From contig NZ_BMZT01000002.1 in assembly GCF_014652935.1 (NCBI RefSeq), forward strand, positions 62,001-126,000: 64,000 nt of DNA. Reading direction: 5' to 3'. The DNA is from Luteimonas padinae. GTDB taxonomy: Bacteria; Pseudomonadota; Gammaproteobacteria; Xanthomonadales; Xanthomonadaceae. Of this stretch, positions 1 through 40,260 are shown one piece after another. A program made the position numbers and the translations under genes. Each line of letters starts with the position of its first letter. Position 1 is the stretch's first letter. The notes under the pieces were generated by a model that saw only the letters and a program-made list of their open reading frames with translations, was not told where the DNA came from and made no database searches.

Positions 1-443
1 CCGGCGAGCAGGGCGTCGGCCATCTGCTCGACACGCTCCGGAGCGGTGTCCAGGGTGTGCGCAAGTGCGTTGCAGGCCGCCACCGCCTGCGCGGGCGTGC
101 CGGCGTCGCCGGCGACCTCGTCCAGCAGTCGGGCGAGCAGGGCGCGCCAGGCCGGATCGCGCGCCAGCCCGGTGGCCGGCAGCGGCGGCATCTCGTGCCG
201 GCGCGCCTGCGCGAGCACGTCGTCGTCGATCGCCGGCGCCTCGAACGATTTGAGCGCGCGCTGCTGCGCCTCGGCCAGGCGCGCCATCAGCCGCAGGTAG
301 CCCTCGATCGTGCTGGCGTCCGCCAGGCTGCGCAGGCGCGCGGCGCGGTCGGAGAACACGCCGGCGCGCTCGGGGATGCGCAGGCGCGGGATGCGGGTGT
401 GGTCGAGGTTTTCGATCTCGCCTCGCGGCAGGATGCGCGGCAC
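1..443 (-). CDS. fdhE: FdhE, formate dehydrogenase accessory protein (partial)
   Basis: Only the N-terminal 147 or so residues are visible; the frame runs off the left edge. They begin V-P-R-I-L-P-R-G-E and align from memory with the N-terminal half of FdhE, the cytoplasmic protein needed to produce active respiratory formate dehydrogenase. The rubredoxin-like cysteine pairs of the C-terminal half would lie outside the window. The start is a GTG at 443; GGAGG lies 4 nt upstream (448-452) and no ATG is available in frame nearby. It is the last visible gene of the fdoG-fdoH-fdoI-fdhE series, separated from fdoI by 117 bp that can form hairpins. Confidence 0.85.
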   Translation of the reverse strand, partial: MPRILPRGEIENLDHTRIPRLRIPERAGVFSDRAARLRSLADASTIEGYLRLMARLAEAQQRALKSFEAPAIDDDVLAQARRHEMPPLPATGLARDPAWRALLARLLDEVAGDAGTPAQAVAACNALAHTLDTAPERVEQMADALLA

Positions 444-560: not shown

Positions 561-1220
561 TCACTTGGCGCTGGCGTCGCGGTCCACCTCGCGCAGCCAC
601 TCGCGGTGGTGCTTCCAGGCCCAGCCGCGCGTCACCCGCCCGCGCACCATCGCGCCCATCGAGCCCTTGACCCAGAACGCCGAGTAGGCGTGGAAGATGA
701 TCAGGCAGATGAGCACCGTGGCCAGGATCGCGTGCAGCACCGAGCCGAGGCGGACGATGGAAACCGGGAAGGCCGGCGCGAACCAGGGCTGCCACATCAC
801 GATGCCGGTCGCGAGCAGGCCGAGCATGCACAGCACCAGCAGCCAGAACAGGACCTTCTGCCCGCCGTTGTAGCGCCCGACCTCCGGCAGCTTCTCCTCG
901 CGCCCGGCGGCGACGTCGTCGATCTGCTTCAGCCACTGGCGGTCGCGCGCATCGAGCCGGTTGGAGCCGCCCATATGCCAGGCGAACAGCACGAACACCA
1001 CGAACATGAAGACGCCGAAGAACGGGTGCAGCACGCGCGTCCACGGCCCGCCGCCGAACAGGGCATAGAGCCAGCTCATCGCCGGGTGGTACAGGGCCAG
1101 TCCCGACAGGCCCGCCAGCAGGAAGCCGATCGCGATCAGCCAGTGGTTGGTGCGCTCGTTGGCGGTGTAGCGGACGATTTCGCGCGGATGCCCGCGGTCG
1201 GCCGGGGTGCGCTCAGTCAT
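561..1220 (-). CDS. fdoI: Formate dehydrogenase gamma subunit, cytochrome b556
   Basis: This 219-residue membrane protein anchors the enzyme and passes electrons from the beta subunit to quinone. Four hydrophobic segments are visible. Histidines expected to ligate two b hemes are present: one near the N-terminus (ERTNHWL), one before the second helix (LHPFFG), and two in the last helical region (SVLHAIL and IFHAYSAFW). Length matches the E. coli FdnI/FdoI family (about 211-217). An ATG at 1220 was chosen over an upstream frame extension because it overlaps the fdoH stop by 8 nt, a normal coupling arrangement, and gives the family's usual N-terminus. Confidence 0.93.
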
Positions 1221-2181
1221 GGCGGTGCTCCTCGTCGCGTGCGCGCTGCAGGGTCCCCGGCGGATAGTCGCCCGCGGGCCGACCATCGGCCAGCGAGGCC
1301 TCGGCGTCCGCTTCGTCCACGTCGGTGACCACCTGGCGGCCGGTGCGGATGAAGTGGAAGAAGCCGATCACCGCGGTCACCGCCATCGCCGCCAGGCCGA
1401 CCGGCTTGGCCACGCCCTTCCACAGCGCCACCATCGGGCTGATGGTCGGGTTCTCGGGCAGGCCGCTGTACAGCGCCGGGCGGTCGGCGTGGTGCAGCAC
1501 GTACATCACGTGCGTGCCGCCGACGCCCTGCGGGTCGTACAGGCCGGCGTTCTCGAAGCCGCGCGACTTCAGGTCGACGATGCGGCTGGCGGCGTGGTCG
1601 GTCATCGCCTCCTTGGTGCCGAACACGATCGCTCCGGTCGGGCAGACCTTGGCGCAGGCCGGCGACTGGCCCACGGCCACGCGGTCCGAGCACAGCGTGC
1701 ACTTGTAGGCCTTGTTGTCCTTCTTCGAGATCCGCGGCACGTCGAACGGGCAGCCGGTGATGCAGTAGCCGCAGCCGATGCAGTTCTCCTCGTGGAAGTC
1801 CACGATGCCGTTGGCGTACTGGATGATCGCGCCCGGAGAGGGGCAGGCCTTCAGGCAGCCCGGGTCCTCGCAGTGCATGCAGCCGTCCTTGCGGATCAGC
1901 CACTCCAGGCCGCCGTCCTCGGTCTCGTGCTCGGCGAAGCGCATCAGCGTCCACGACTGCGCGCTGAGGTCGGCGGGGTTGTCGTACACGCCGACGTTCT
2001 CGCCGATGTCGTCGCGCAGGTCGTTCCACTCCATGCACGCCACCTGGCAGGCCTTGCAGCCGATGCACTTGGTGGTGTCGATCAGCTTGGCCACCGAGCC
2101 GCCGGCGTGCGGCTCGCGGGCGCCGGGTGGTGCGTAGGTGGTTGCGGAGCGCCGCTTGATGTCGAGTGATTGCAATGCCAT
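1213..2181 (-). CDS. fdoH: Formate dehydrogenase beta subunit, 4x[4Fe-4S]
   Basis: This 322-residue electron-transfer subunit carries four cysteine clusters: [37 protein letters not shown] and CTLCSDR followed by CAKVCP. Together they would hold four [4Fe-4S] centres linking the catalytic subunit to the cytochrome b. A single hydrophobic helix (about residues 255-275) near the C-terminus is the membrane anchor, as in E. coli FdnH. The ATG at 2181 has AGGAG 7 nt upstream and starts 10 nt after the fdoG stop, so the subunits are co-transcribed. The protein has no export signal and probably leaves the cell with the Tat-signal-bearing alpha subunit. Confidence 0.95.
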
Positions 2182-2191
2182 GCCGGGGCTC

Positions 2192-5100
2192 CTATGCCTT
2201 TTCCACGTTCACCAGGAACGACTTGAACTCGGGTGTCTGCGAGTTGCCGTCGCCCACCGATGGCGTCAGGGTATTGGTCAGGTAGCCCGGCTTGGTGAGG
2301 CCGGTCAGACCCCAGTGCAGCGGGATGCCGACGTGGTGCAGGGTCTTGCCGTCGACCTGGAGCGCGCGGATGCGCTTGGTCACCACCGCCACCGCCACGA
2401 TGTGCCCACGCTTGGACGTGACGCGCACGCGGTCGCCGTGGGACACGCCGATCTCCTTCGCAAGTCCCTCGCCGATCTCGACGAACTGCTCCGGCTGCAG
2501 GATCGCGTTGAGGCGGACGTGCTTGGTCCAGTAGTGGAAGTGCTCGGTCAGGCGGTAGGTGGTGCCGACGTACGGGAACTCGTCGACCTTGCCCATCGTC
2601 GCCAGGTCGGCCTCGAACACGCGTGCGGCCGGGTTGCTGGTGGCGGCGGGCGTGTCCGGGTTCAGCGGGTTGTAGCCCAGCGGGGTCTCGAACGGCTCGT
2701 AGTGCTCGGGGAACGGGCCTTCGGCCATGCCGTCGCGGGCGAAGAACCGTGCGACGCCCTCGGGGTTCATGATGAAGGGGCTCATTCCGCCGGCGGGGTC
2801 CTCGTCGGCCTTGAAGTCCGGCACGTCGGCGCCGGTCCAGGCGGTGCCGTTCCACCACACCAGCGGCCGCTTCGGGTCGAAGGGCTTGCCGGACGGATCC
2901 GCGGAGGCGCGGTTGTAGAGGATGCGGCGGTTGGCCGGCCACGCCCAGGCCCACTTCAGGGTCTGGCCGATGCCGGTCGGGTCGCTGTTGTCGCGCCGCG
3001 CCATCATGTTGCCGTCCTGGGTCCAGGCACCGGCGTAGATCCAGCAGCCGCTGGACGTGCTGCCGTCGTCGCGCAGCTCGCCGAAGCCCGAGACCTGCTC
3101 GCCGCGGCGGCGGGTGATGCGGCTCGGGTCGCGCGGGTCCGGGAGGTCCTCCAGCGCCCGGCCGTTGTACTCCATCGCAAGCTCCGCGGCGGAGGGATGC
3201 AGCGGCTGGGCGTGGTTCCAGGTCAGGTTCAGCACCGGATCGGGGAACGCACCGCCCTCGGTGCTGTACATCTCCCGCATCCGCATGAACAGGCGGGCCA
3301 TGATCTCGATGTCGGTCTTCGCCAGGCCGGGCGGCTCGGCGCCTTTCCAGTGCCACTGCAGCCAGCGGCCGGAGTTCACCAGCGCGCCTTCCTCCTCGGC
3401 GAAGCAGCTGGTGGGCAGGCGGAAGACCTCGGTCTGGATGGCCGCCGGGTCGACGTCGTTGGCATCGCCGAAGTTCTTCCAGAACTCGGAGGTGTCGGTG
3501 GCCAGCGGATCCATGACCACCAGGAACTTCAGCTTCGACAGCGCCGAGATCATCTTGGCCTTGTTCGGCGCAGCCGCCAGCGGGTTGAAGCCCTGGCAGA
3601 TGTAGCCGTTGACCTTGCCCTGGTCCATCAGCTCGTAGGTCTGGAGCATGTCGTAGGGCTTGTCGAGCTTGGGCAGGTAGTCGAAGGCCCAGTCGTTGTC
3701 CGCGGTGGCGGCATCGCCATACCACGCCTTCATCAGGCTGACGTGGAACTTCGGGTAGTGCTGCCAGTAGCTGAGCTGGTTTTCACGCAAAGGCTTGAGC
3801 GTGCGCGAGGCGATGTAGGTGCCGTAGTCCTGCTCGTGCTCGTTGGGCAGCGTCAGGTAGCCCGGCAGCAGGTTCGACATCAGCCCCAGGTCGGTGAGGC
3901 CCTGGATGTTGGAGTGCCCGCGCAGCGCGTTCATGCCGCCGCCGGCGATGCCGATGTTTCCCAGCAGCAGCTGCAGCATCGCGCCGGTGCGGATGATCTG
4001 CGAGCCGATGGAGTGCTGCGTCCAGCCCAGCGCGTACAGGATGGTGCCGGCGCGGTCGGGGCGGGCGGTGGACGCCAGCATGTCGACCACGGTGTGGAAC
4101 TGCTCCTGGGTGGTGCCGCAGACGCGCTCGACCATCTCCGGCGTGTAGCGCGCGTAGTGCTTGCGCAGCAGCTGGTAGACGCAGCGCGGGTGCTGCATCG
4201 TCGGGTCGGTGACCACGAAGCCGTCGGCGCCGCGCTCGTAGTCCCAGGTGGCCTTGTCGTAGCGCCGCCGGTCCGCGTCGTAGCCGGAATAGAGGCCGCC
4301 GTCGAACGCAAAGTCCTCGCGCACGATGAAGGTCATGTCCGTGTAGTTGCGGACGTACTCGTGCTGGATGCGGTCGGTCTCGATCAGGTTGCTGATCGCC
4401 GCGCCCAGGAACACGATGTCCGTGCCGGTGCGGATCGGCGCGTAGTAGTCCGCGACCGACGCCGAGCGGTTGAACCGCGGGTCGACCACGACCAGCCTGG
4501 CGTTGTTATGCGCCTTGGCCTCGGTAACCCACTTGAACCCGCAGGGATGGGCCTCGGCTGCGTTGCCGCCCATGATCAGGACCACGTCCGCGTTCTTGAT
4601 GTCGACCCAATGGTTCGTCATCGCTCCACGGCCAAACGTCGGGGCAAGACCTGCCACCGTCGGGCCGTGTCAAACGCGGGCCTGGTTGTCGAATGCGAGC
4701 AGGCCGAGCGAGCGCGCGACCTTGTGGGTGATGTAGGCGGTCTCGTTGCTGGTGGCCGAGGCCGCGAGCATGCCGGTGGTGATCCAGCGGTTGACCGTGC
4801 GGCCCTCGGGCGTCTGCGCCACGAAGTTGGCGTCGCGGTCGTCCTTCATCAGGCGCGCGATGCGCTCGAACGCGTCGTCCCAGCCGATCGGCTCCCAGGT
4901 GTCGGAGCCGGGCGCCCGGTACTCGGGCTGCTTGAGCCGGTTCGGGCTGTGGATGAAGTCGATCAGGCCGGCGCCCTTGGGGCACAGCGTGCCGCGGTTG
5001 ACCGGGTGGTCCGGATCGCCCTCGATGTGGACGATGGCGGAGGCGGAGTTCTTCGCGCCGTCGCCAAGGCCGTACATCAGCAGGCCGCAGGCAACCGAAC

Positions 5101-5260
5101 AATAGGGACAGGTGTTCCGGGTCTCGGTCATGCGCGCCAGCTTGAACTGGCGGACTTCGGCCATGGCCGGCGCCGGACTGGCGCCGAGCAGGGCCAGGCT
5201 GGAACCGGCGAGGCCGGTGCCCGAGACCTTGAGGAACTGCCGTCGATTCATGTTGACCAT
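2192..5260 (-). CDS. fdoG: Formate dehydrogenase alpha subunit, selenocysteine-containing
   Basis: This 1022-residue molybdopterin enzyme oxidises formate to CO2 in the periplasm. An in-frame TGA at 4670-4672 is residue 197 and must be read as selenocysteine: the context is N-Q-A-R-V-U-H-G-P-T-V, as in E. coli FdnG (Sec196), and the frame continues without other interruption. The N-terminus is a Tat signal ([10 protein letters not shown], then an Ala-rich segment), followed by the [4Fe-4S] ligands CPYCSVACG and TLCPKG. The C-terminal MGD-binding domain is complete. The start at 5260 was chosen because GAGG lies 8 nt upstream and it places the twin-arginine motif near the end; an open frame extends further to 5341. 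Read naively, this gene would be split in two. Confidence 0.95.
4643..4672 (-). promoter_or_regulatory. Bacterial SECIS element of fdoG with the UGA codon
   Basis: On the minus strand the UGA codon (4672-4670) is followed by an apical stem GGCA/UGCC enclosing the loop GGUCU (4655-4643). The distance from UGA to the loop and the GGUCU loop match the E. coli fdhF and fdnG elements that bind SelB. A second possible pairing, GGCC at about 4666-4663 with a downstream GGCC, would lengthen the lower stem. Confidence 0.9.
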
Positions 5261-5460
5261 GAAGCGATCCTCGAGTCGTGGTGGCTGGAAGGCCCGGCGT
5301 GCCGGGCCACCTTGGCTTGTGCGCGCGTTCCGCGCAGGCACGCCCCAGCATAGTCCGGGCAGGTTGCAAGGTAAACGCGGCGGCGGAAGCCGTTGGCGGG
5401 CAATAGGTGGGCTCTATCGCGGCCCCGTAAGATGCGGCGACCCCGTCACGCGGCAACCCC

Positions 5461-6744
5461 ATGGCACAGGCATCCGATCGCGACCCGTATCCCGACGCCC
5501 TGCGTGCCTGCGCGCTGCTGGTGGTGGTGCTCGGGCACTGGGTCGCGACCCTGCCTCGGCTGGCCGACGGGCAGCTGGTCGACACCGACCACCTGCTCGG
5601 CATCTGGGATATGGCCGGCGTCCTGACCTGGCTGGTGCAGGTGGTGCCGCTGTTCGTGTTCGTGTCCGCCGCGGTCAGCGCCGACGGCGTGGCGCGGCGG
5701 CTGCGGCAGCACCGGCAGGCGCAGTGGTGGGCCGGGCGCGCACTGGGCCTGGCGCGGCCGACGGTCACCTACCTGGCGGTGCTGGTGGCGCTGGCGGCGG
5801 TGTCGCTGTTCACCGGCGGACGCCTGCTGGGCGTGTTCAACCAGTCGCTGACGATCCACCTCTGGTTCCTGCTGATGCTGCTCACCGTGCAGGCGCTGCT
5901 GCCGTGGTGCCTGCGGCTGGACGCGCGCTTCGGGCTGCGCGCGGTGCTGGGGCTGGTGGCGGTGGCCGCCGCCCTCGACGTGGCGCGTGCCGGCGCGTGG
6001 ACGCCGGAGGCGCTGCGCTGGCTGGGCCGCGGCGTGGCCGAAAGTCCACCCGGCATCGCCTGGCTCAACATGCTGGTGGTCTGGCTGCTGCCGCAGCAGC
6101 TTGGCATCGCGTGGAAGCGCGGGCGCTTCCGCGGCGTGGGCGCGGGCGTGGGCCTGCTCCTGCTGGGGTGTGCCTGGCTGGCCTGGGCGATGGCGAGCGG
6201 GTATCCGGTGGCGATGGTCGGCGTGGCGCTGGCCGGCAACAACATGCTGCCGCCGACGCTGGCCCTGGTTGGCGTGATGTGGCTGCAGGTGGGCGCCGTG
6301 CTCGCGTTCGAGCCGGTGGCGCGGCGCCTGCTGGCGGGCCGCGCGCTCGGGCGCGCGATCGCGGTGCTGGGCGCGCTCGGCATGCCGCTGTATCTCTGGC
6401 ACAAGCTGGCCGAGCTCCCGGCCGCATGGCTGGGCGAGAAGCTCGGGCTGCCGATCGACGCCGGTGTCCCCGGCGAGCCCGGGTTCTGGGTGGGGCGCGC
6501 GGGCTGGATCGCGCTCTGCCTGCTGGTGGTGGCGCCGCTGGTGGCGCTGGTGGTGCGCTACGAACTGCGGCGCACGCGCGAAGTTCCCGCCGTGGATGCG
6601 CTGGCGCCGGTACTCCTGGGCGGGCTGGCCCTGTACCTGGGCCTGGCGTCGGCGCTGGTCTGGGGCGTGTGGCCGGGCGCTGTGGTCGGACTGGCGGGTG
6701 TGGCGCTGGCCTCGCGGCTGCTGCGGAAACGCGGCGATGGCTGA
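5461..6744 (+). CDS. Acyltransferase family 3 membrane protein
   Basis: This 427-residue polytopic protein has about ten hydrophobic segments. The N-terminus reads YPDALRACALLVVVLGHW, the usual opening of OafA/YrhL-type acyltransferases with the catalytic histidine of the R-x10-H type. Late in the protein is GMPLYLWHK, also typical. Such proteins acylate surface sugars or other exported glycans; the substrate here is not evident. It is divergent from fdoG across a 200-bp gap (5261-5460) in which I see no other feature, and overlaps the next gene by 8 nt, so the two are probably one transcript. Confidence 0.85.
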   Translation: MAQASDRDPYPDALRACALLVVVLGHWVATLPRLADGQLVDTDHLLGIWDMAGVLTWLVQVVPLFVFVSAAVSADGVARRLRQHRQAQWWAGRALGLARPTVTYLAVLVALAAVSLFTGGRLLGVFNQSLTIHLWFLLMLLTVQALLPWCLRLDARFGLRAVLGLVAVAAALDVARAGAWTPEALRWLGRGVAESPPGIAWLNMLVVWLLPQQLGIAWKRGRFRGVGAGVGLLLLGCAWLAWAMASGYPVAMVGVALAGNNMLPPTLALVGVMWLQVGAVLAFEPVARRLLAGRALGRAIAVLGALGMPLYLWHKLAELPAAWLGEKLGLPIDAGVPGEPGFWVGRAGWIALCLLVVAPLVALVVRYELRRTREVPAVDALAPVLLGGLALYLGLASALVWGVWPGAVVGLAGVALASRLLRKRGDG

Positions 6745-9441: not shown

Positions 9442-10359
9442 TCAGCGCGGCGGCGGGATCTCCGGGCGGCCGTTGGCGAACGCCTCGGCCAGGTAGTCGA
9501 TCATCACCCGCACCTTGGCCGGCGGGCGCCGGTCGGGCGGGTAGAGCACGTGGATGCCGCCCAGCCGCACGCACGGCCGGTCGAGCTCCAGCACCACCAG
9601 CTCGCCGCGCGCCAGCGCCGCTTCGACGATGAACTCCGGCTGGTAGATGATCCCCTGGCCGCGCACCGCCGCCGCCAGCAGCGCATCGCCGTTGTTGGCC
9701 AGCAGGTTGCCGGTGACCGGCACGCGGACCTCGCCGTCGGCGCCGAAGGCCCAGTGCCCGCGTCCCTGCGTGCCCGAGAGCGTGTAGCCCAGGCAGTTGT
9801 GCTGAACCAGTTCGGCCACCCGCCGCGGCACGCCCCGCACGTCGAGGTAGGACGGGGACGCGCAGACCAGCATCGGGCTGTCGCCCAGGCGCCGCGCATG
9901 CAGCGGGCTGTCTGCCAGCCGGCCGATGCGCACGGCCAGGTCCCAGCTGCCGGCGACGAGGTCGAGTTCGGCGTCGCTCAGGCCCAGCTCCACCGTGACC
10001 TCCGGATGGCGGCGGCAGAATTCCGGGACCAGCGGCGCCACGAAGCAGCGCCCGAAGGACAGCGGCACGTTCATGCGCAGGGTGCCGGTGGCCTTGACCC
10101 GCTGGGAGGCGACGGCGGCCTCCGCCTCGTCGATCTCCGGGAGGATGCGCAGGCAGGCGTCGAGGTAGTCGCTGCCGGCCTCGGTCAGCGCCAGGCGCCG
10201 GGTGGTGCGATGGAACAGCTTCACGCCCAGCCGGGCCTCGAGCGCGTTGACGTGCTTGGTCGCCATCGCCGGCGACATGCCGAGATGGCGGGCCGCCGCC
10301 GAGAGGCTGCCGTCGGTCGCGGCGCGGACGAAGACGCGCATGCTGGTGATCCGGTCCAT
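9442..10359 (-). CDS. LysR family transcriptional regulator
   Basis: This 305-residue regulator has the LysR winged helix-turn-helix in residues 1-60 (SMRVFVRAATDGSLSAAARHL, split here by the recognition helix that follows) and a periplasmic-binding-protein-like effector domain from about residue 90. It belongs to the large CrgA/AaeR-like branch starting MDRI-x-M-x-x-F. It is divergent from the LigB/SDR/AKR operon with an 85-bp shared promoter region containing a clear inverted repeat, so it very probably regulates those genes, likely in response to an aromatic or quinone-type compound (inferred). Confidence 0.92.
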   Translation of the reverse strand: MDRITSMRVFVRAATDGSLSAAARHLGMSPAMATKHVNALEARLGVKLFHRTTRRLALTEAGSDYLDACLRILPEIDEAEAAVASQRVKATGTLRMNVPLSFGRCFVAPLVPEFCRRHPEVTVELGLSDAELDLVAGSWDLAVRIGRLADSPLHARRLGDSPMLVCASPSYLDVRGVPRRVAELVQHNCLGYTLSGTQGRGHWAFGADGEVRVPVTGNLLANNGDALLAAAVRGQGIIYQPEFIVEAALARGELVVLELDRPCVRLGGIHVLYPPDRRPPAKVRVMIDYLAEAFANGRPEIPPPR

Positions 10360-39838: not shown

Positions 39839-39970
39839 ATCCACCTCCCGCACGACCGGCATCGGCCTCGTGGAGGTCGGGCTGCCGTGAGTTCGTGGAG
39901 TCCGGTCAACCTCGAAGTCGCATGTTGGAGAGTCGCCGAAGCCGCGCGCCACCAGCCACCGAAGCGGGGC

Positions 39971-40064
39971 GCTGTGGGGTGGGGATGGACAGCGCACATG
40001 GATGTGCGCGGTAGGCGAATCAGCCATGGATGGCTGCTTCGCCGGTCCATCCCCACCCCGCAGC
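39971..40064. repeat. Cloverleaf-like inverted repeat element B
   Basis: A 94-bp element with 20-bp outer arms matching at 19 positions (39971-39990 and 40045-40064). Inside are two hairpins: GCGCACAT-GG-ATGTGCGC (39992-40009), then GTAG overlapping a longer stem with apex CAGCCAT-GG-ATGGCTG (40014-40043). The GTAG head recalls Stenotrophomonas SMAG/REP palindromes. The whole can fold as a three-way junction in DNA or RNA. Confidence 0.82.
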
Positions 40065-40096
40065 GACACGCTCCCCCACGAAGCCGTATGCCCAAC

Positions 40097-40260
40097 GGCA
40101 TCCGGCATCCGGCACCCGGCACCCGGCACCCGGCACCCGGCACCCCGCACCCCGCACCCCGCACCCCGCACCCCGCACCCCGCACCCCGCACCCCGCACC
40201 CCGCACCCGCACCCCGCACCCCGCACCCCGCACCCGGTACCCGGCTCCGGCTCCGGCTCC
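40097..40260. repeat. Heptanucleotide tandem repeat (CGCACCC / GGCACCC)
   Basis: About 20 consecutive 7-bp units: two GGCATCC, five GGCACCC, twelve CGCACCC with one unit shortened to 6 bp, one GGTACCC, and then three 6-bp GGCTCC. All are on the plus strand, between the divergent BaiN and small membrane protein genes. Long open frames seen here in several phases are artefacts of the repeat. Confidence 0.95.

Follow-up and report, generated by a model that had tools for sequence, protein, structure and literature searches.

Does the TGA codon that interrupts a formate dehydrogenase gene of Luteimonas padinae break this gene, or is it read as selenocysteine (Sec)? The gene lies in a stretch of 64,000 nucleotides, the window (G000:C2:62001-126000, where G000 is the organism's own genome; L017 is the window's own locus), and coordinates below are those of the window unless another sequence is named. 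In a plain list of open reading frames, the sole setting tried, the gene is broken into two fragments of 223 aa (4670-5341) and 821 aa (2192-4657), as a sequence-only reading of this DNA had expected of automatic gene callers in general.

The fdnG gene and its in-frame TGA

With the TGA read through, the minus-strand frame 2192-5260 yields 1022 residues and contains a single internal stop. This is the TGA at 4670-4672 (minus strand), the inferred Sec codon, which falls at residue 197 in the context ARV-U-HGPTV; the sequence-only reading had both coordinates and context right for the read-through translation. The product is the formate dehydrogenase-N/O alpha (major) subunit, FdnG/FdoG: it matches TIGR01553 with 1472.4 bits (cut-off 814.2) over the full length of the model (positions 2-1009 of 1009) and E. 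coli FdnG (1kqf chain A) with 1542 bits. Residue 197 pairs with position 196 of 1kqf_A, printed there as X, which we take to be selenocysteine, and the equivalence to Sec196 of the E. coli enzyme proposed earlier is thereby borne out by the alignment. The N-terminus, MNRRQFLK, presumably represents a twin-arginine export signal motif, which it resembles. Altogether, the fdnG gene at 2192-5260 very probably encodes a Sec-containing FdnG/FdoG, with Sec insertion and enzyme activity attributed to it from the known families.

A scan of 5200-5470 found no sigma-70-like promoter. An open frame of 1071 aa on the plus strand (2138-5353) runs antisense to the entire fdnG gene and most likely results from G+C-rich codon usage.

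The SECIS element and the conservation of the Sec codon

A bacterial SECIS element (Rfam RF01989, SECIS_3) overlaps and follows the Sec codon at 4617-4675 on the minus strand. It scores 84.4 bits against a gathering score of 63, with an E-value of 1.3e-18 over the whole window, and resembles the family over all 59 of the 59 model positions, with nothing notable that differs. The hairpin has a GGCA/UGCC stem and a GGUCU loop, exactly as it had been described from the letters alone. Folded by itself, the segment 4672-4626 (minus strand) reaches -25.5 kcal/mol (z -3.15), and only 1 of 200 shuffled sequences folds as well.

The Sec codon itself is invariant among the close homologues. Residue 197 could be aligned in 106 of 129 loci, with TGA in 90 and TGC in 16, the latter being distant molybdoenzymes of 22-31% identity. 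The 90 comprise the window's own gene (L017), L020-L099, and L100-L108; when L017 is left out, TGA occupies the Sec codon in 89 of 89 FdnG rows, namely 80 named relatives and nine rows from the genus, which count the organism's own genome (L105) and among which L102 is identical to the named relative L020 in the tree columns. Because the 80 named relatives are the best 80 of 594 confirmed candidates by similarity, this count gives no fair picture of Cys-type homologues.

In the 89 FdnG rows, the silent positions directly after the TGA form the least variable stretch of fdnG. At the 15 amino-acid-conserved codons within residues 198-215, the mean codon entropy is 0.46 bits, as against 1.13 bits (sd 0.08) for identical amino acids at conserved positions in the rest of the gene, and none of 20000 draws was as low; the six lowest of 394 sliding codon-entropy windows all lie within residues 198-221. 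For covariation, 27 sequences were hand-picked from the 37 distinct SECIS stretches. Pairing according to the SECIS_3 structure holds in 94.2% of cells, and four pairs are changed on both sides; none of 500 shuffles was as high in either respect (7 of 500 for further pair types), and slid versions of the structure are paired in only 27-51%. Pairing is complete in the upper helix (100% of cells) and reaches 89.7% in the lower one, with certain lower-stem pairs often open in these 27 sequences (columns 8-48 in 9, 15-42 in 10, and 12-44 in 5).

The operon and the adjoining Sec machinery

All the genes downstream of fdnG lie on the same strand, in the order fdnH-fdnI-fdhE-selA-selB-selC-selD. The iron-sulphur beta subunit FdnH/FdoH is encoded at 1213-2181 (minus strand; TIGR01582, 453.6 bits, cut-off 334.7), and the cytochrome b gamma subunit FdnI/FdoI at 561-1286 (minus strand; TIGR01583, 169.7 bits, cut-off 115.85; also PF01292), where, by inspection, translation more likely begins with the ATG at 1220 than at the start of the listed frame. 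The 5' part of fdhE, encoding a formate dehydrogenase accessory protein, occupies 1-443 (minus strand; TIGR01562, 280.7 bits, cut-off 187.65), and its frame runs past the left window edge (L017:13514-14443). The rest of fdhE and the sel genes sit beyond this edge, out of reach of the sequence-only reading: selA (G000:C2:60096-61469, 585.8 bits), selB (G000:C2:58195-60084, 403.1 bits), selC for tRNA-Sec (G000:C2:57948-58039, 83.4 bits; a tRNA-SeC with anticodon TCA according to ARAGORN), and selD (G000:C2:56965-57894, 436.9 bits). The genome therefore contains all four components of the bacterial Sec-decoding trait, each over its cut-off. The absence of selB or selC had been named as what would overturn the Sec reading; both are present, together with selA and selD, on the fdnG strand and adjoining it. 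Genes, order, strand, codon, SECIS, and tRNA are all directly visible in the DNA.

Another accessory gene, fdhD, is located elsewhere in the genome (C2:298084-298809, 210 bits). A second use of selenium, through mnmH/ybbB, gave no match in this genome, nor was the nitrate reductase partner NarG found there over its cut-off; the only hit was FdnG itself. Elsewhere in the window, at 39964-40071 on the plus strand, there is a match to the Rfam family TwoAYGGAY (50.7 bits, gathering score 43) at 25 bases from a tandem array of the 7-base unit GCACCCC (40096-40242); given the unusual sequence there, the match may be fortuitous.

These data bear on two other readings of the TGA. According to the first, which the two fragments in the plain list of frames would favour, the TGA truly interrupts the gene of a Cys-type formate dehydrogenase, as the result of pseudogene formation or a sequencing error. 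Such an origin is most improbable given a TGA shared by 89 of 89 FdnG rows, nine of them from the genus (own genome counted), a SECIS element under silent-site constraint and with covariation, and complete Sec machinery next door; this reading was rejected, as the conserved TGA and SECIS contradict it. According to the second, for which no supporting point was found, the UGA would be read through as another residue, such as Trp or Cys, which appears hardly credible and was likewise rejected in view of the tRNA-Sec with anticodon TCA, SelB, and SECIS in one cluster, and of the non-standard residue X196 aligned in E. coli FdnG.

It is thus nearly certain that the locus encodes a standard Sec-containing, membrane-bound respiratory formate dehydrogenase of the FdnGHI/FdoGHI type, clustered with the genes of its own Sec machinery in the order fdnGHI-fdhE-selA-selB-selC-selD. 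The known families indicate how Sec would be inserted, how the protein would be exported, and how the enzyme and its electron path would work. SelD would provide selenophosphate, with which SelA would convert Ser-tRNA-Sec to Sec-tRNA-Sec; SelB would bind the SECIS hairpin just 3' of the UGA at 4670-4672 and deliver Sec-tRNA-Sec there. In the active site of FdnG, Sec is expected to serve as a metal ligand. The protein would be exported via the Tat system, and electrons would pass from FdnG through FdnH and FdnI to quinone.

Distribution within the genus and the order

Selenoproteins had been considered unexpected in this bacterial group, which is partly right: FdnG scores over its cut-off in 8 of 52 genomes of the genus, and 33 of 299 genomes from the order match the FdnG of one of these eight (G081) at E 1e-100 or better, the organism's own genome being included in both counts. 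All 33 matches have exactly one internal stop, and it is TGA. SelA is found in the same 8 of the 52 genomes as FdnG. SECIS is found in nine; the ninth genome, G040, which is 73% complete and split over about 280 contigs, carries SECIS and part of an FdnG with TGA, and no SelA match was found in it, likely because of the incomplete assembly. The FdnG of Luteimonas granuli (L020) is 94% identical to that of the window; genome G015 carries the very same FdnG as L020, with matching chromosome coordinates.

SelA and FdnG were counted here because the Rfam tRNA-Sec model, which exceeds its cut-off in 71 of 81 genomes, is misleading as a count of Sec users. Among the matches listed, nine score above 71 bits (seven from the genus, including the own genome, and two from elsewhere in the order), and the others, all below 53 bits, are probably other long-arm tRNAs.

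Gene trees and lateral transfer

The FdnG tree was built from 52 rows chosen from 88 (LG+G4), with the FdnG of G033 and G081 as the outgroup. The seven main-type FdnG rows of the genus form one group inside a set of 17 rows otherwise composed of Alcaligenaceae and Oceanisphaera (support 100/99), apart from seven other Lysobacterales rows (Stenotrophomonas, Pseudoxanthomonas, Rhodanobacteraceae, and a MAG). A single clade of the seven genus rows and these seven others is rejected (p-AU 0.0048), in a test that is weakened by the groups having been named after the first tree was seen.

For SelA and SelB, only the window and L020 represent the genus, against six other Lysobacterales rows. The smallest supported SelB set beyond the L. 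granuli pair comprises eight Alcaligenaceae and two Aeromonadaceae rows (support 96), and one clade of the genus with other Lysobacterales has a p-AU of 0.040, from a quick tree with long-branch and composition warnings. The corresponding SelA clade is not rejected (p 0.23, a quick tree with the same warnings). In view of the FdnG and SelB trees and clade tests, FdnG has likely been acquired laterally from an Alcaligenaceae-like source, and the same may be proposed, less firmly, for SelB; in both cases, we infer the direction of transfer. The trees do not speak with one voice on lateral transfer, as SelA lends it no support.

Sec genes that lie apart from an fdn operon

The species relationships were approached with an rpoB tree of 29 rows, consisting of the eight FdnG-containing genomes and a hand-chosen 21 of the 43 others without FdnG; rpoB gave no match in G040. 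One clade of all eight is rejected (p 1.6e-10), as is one of the six with main-type FdnG (p 9e-73). In this tree, G029 pairs with G033, G081 groups with G000, G018, and G044, and G006 (470 contigs), which lacks FdnG, falls among the genomes that have it. Two irregularities were seen in rpoB itself: in G016 (G016:C1:2356277-2360399), it is read as two open frames with a slight overlap, as a frameshift or an assembly error would produce, and one rpoB match of G006 contains TAG.

The FdnG proteins of G033 and G081 are only 61% identical to that of the window and are split from the other FdnG rows with support 100; against the 299 genomes of the order, G081 FdnG finds none better than 62% identity among the matches listed. 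Both genes contain the TGA and belong to an fdnGHI-fdhE set unlinked to the sel genes: in each genome, the only FdnG over cut-off and the single SECIS lie on a contig other than that of the sel genes. The sel genes themselves are of the genus type, a label based on identity to the window genome, not on a tree, and weakest for G033 SelB (SelA 83%, SelB 82%, and SelD 97% in G081; 78%, 70%, and 88% in G033; named relatives from other genera attain 73%, 66%, and 78% at best). tRNA-Sec is present in both genomes.

In G081, the sel genes have the same neighbourhood as in G000, and an acyltransferase match starts 236 bases from the selA match, whereas G000, G018, and G012 have fdnGHI-fdhE between the two. 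In G033, an assembly of 310 contigs, the 4.9 kb searched before selA gave no fdhE or fdn match. This arrangement suggests that in G081 and G033 the home fdn operon may have been lost and a foreign one gained, the sel genes having stayed in place. It seems somewhat more probable than not that Sec genes of this genus can outlive their formate dehydrogenase, with the machinery kept and the client selenoprotein swapped laterally, and do not travel with it as one moving unit.

A tmRNA gene lies at most about 2 kb from the end of the divergent G081 fdn operon: in L165 (G081:C1:1515001-1530000), the fdhE match starts at 4916 (minus strand), and the tmRNA gene occupies 2484-2836. tmRNA genes are common landing sites of mobile islands.

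Relation to known systems and significance

The closest known counterparts are FdnGHI and FdoGHI of E. coli (1kqf), which share with the present locus an alpha subunit of full length whose special residue stands in the same column, genes for the beta and gamma subunits, and the accessory gene fdhE. The difference is that the sel genes are here inside the fdn cluster; E. coli selAB, selC, and selD are located elsewhere and not with the formate dehydrogenase genes.

Clusters of the present kind were described long ago, and the Sec-containing formate dehydrogenase with its sel genes is, in this sense, a correct but ordinary case. Passages of a 2006 paper (PMC1794560) describe selA-selB-selC operons, with fdhA beside them, as common to the Alpha- and Betaproteobacteria and Pseudomonadales that decode Sec and have FdhA as their only selenoprotein, and infer lateral transfer; an fdoGHI-selABCD cluster of supposedly transferred origin, with cases in Rhodanobacteraceae, appears in passages of a 2021 paper (PMC8124441). 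As far as these passages go, the clusters of Alpha-, Beta-, and some Gammaproteobacteria resemble the present one in having selA-selB-selC beside a Sec-containing formate dehydrogenase. Unlike the cases in the passages of PMC8124441, selC (L017:9948-10039) does not overlap here with the selB frame, which ends at 10132. Among the 80 named relatives (best 80 of 594), a selA match within the locus stretch is found in 67 and a selB match in 69.

Luteimonas is not named in the passages of PMC1794560 and PMC8124441 on such clusters. Judged by their titles, the papers listed for Luteimonas together with selenocysteine do not deal with a Sec-containing formate dehydrogenase, and the list returned by a search on Stenotrophomonas held nothing relevant. 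The modestly fresh point is evolutionary, namely the sel genes without an adjacent fdn operon in G081 and G033.

For the organism, the analysis yields the right model of a gene that a plain list of frames breaks, and it adds one genus to the bacteria whose use of Sec is driven by formate dehydrogenase. This agrees with the published view that such bacteria keep Sec decoding because of formate dehydrogenase as its client, and the possible client swap in two relatives would be a small natural experiment on that view.
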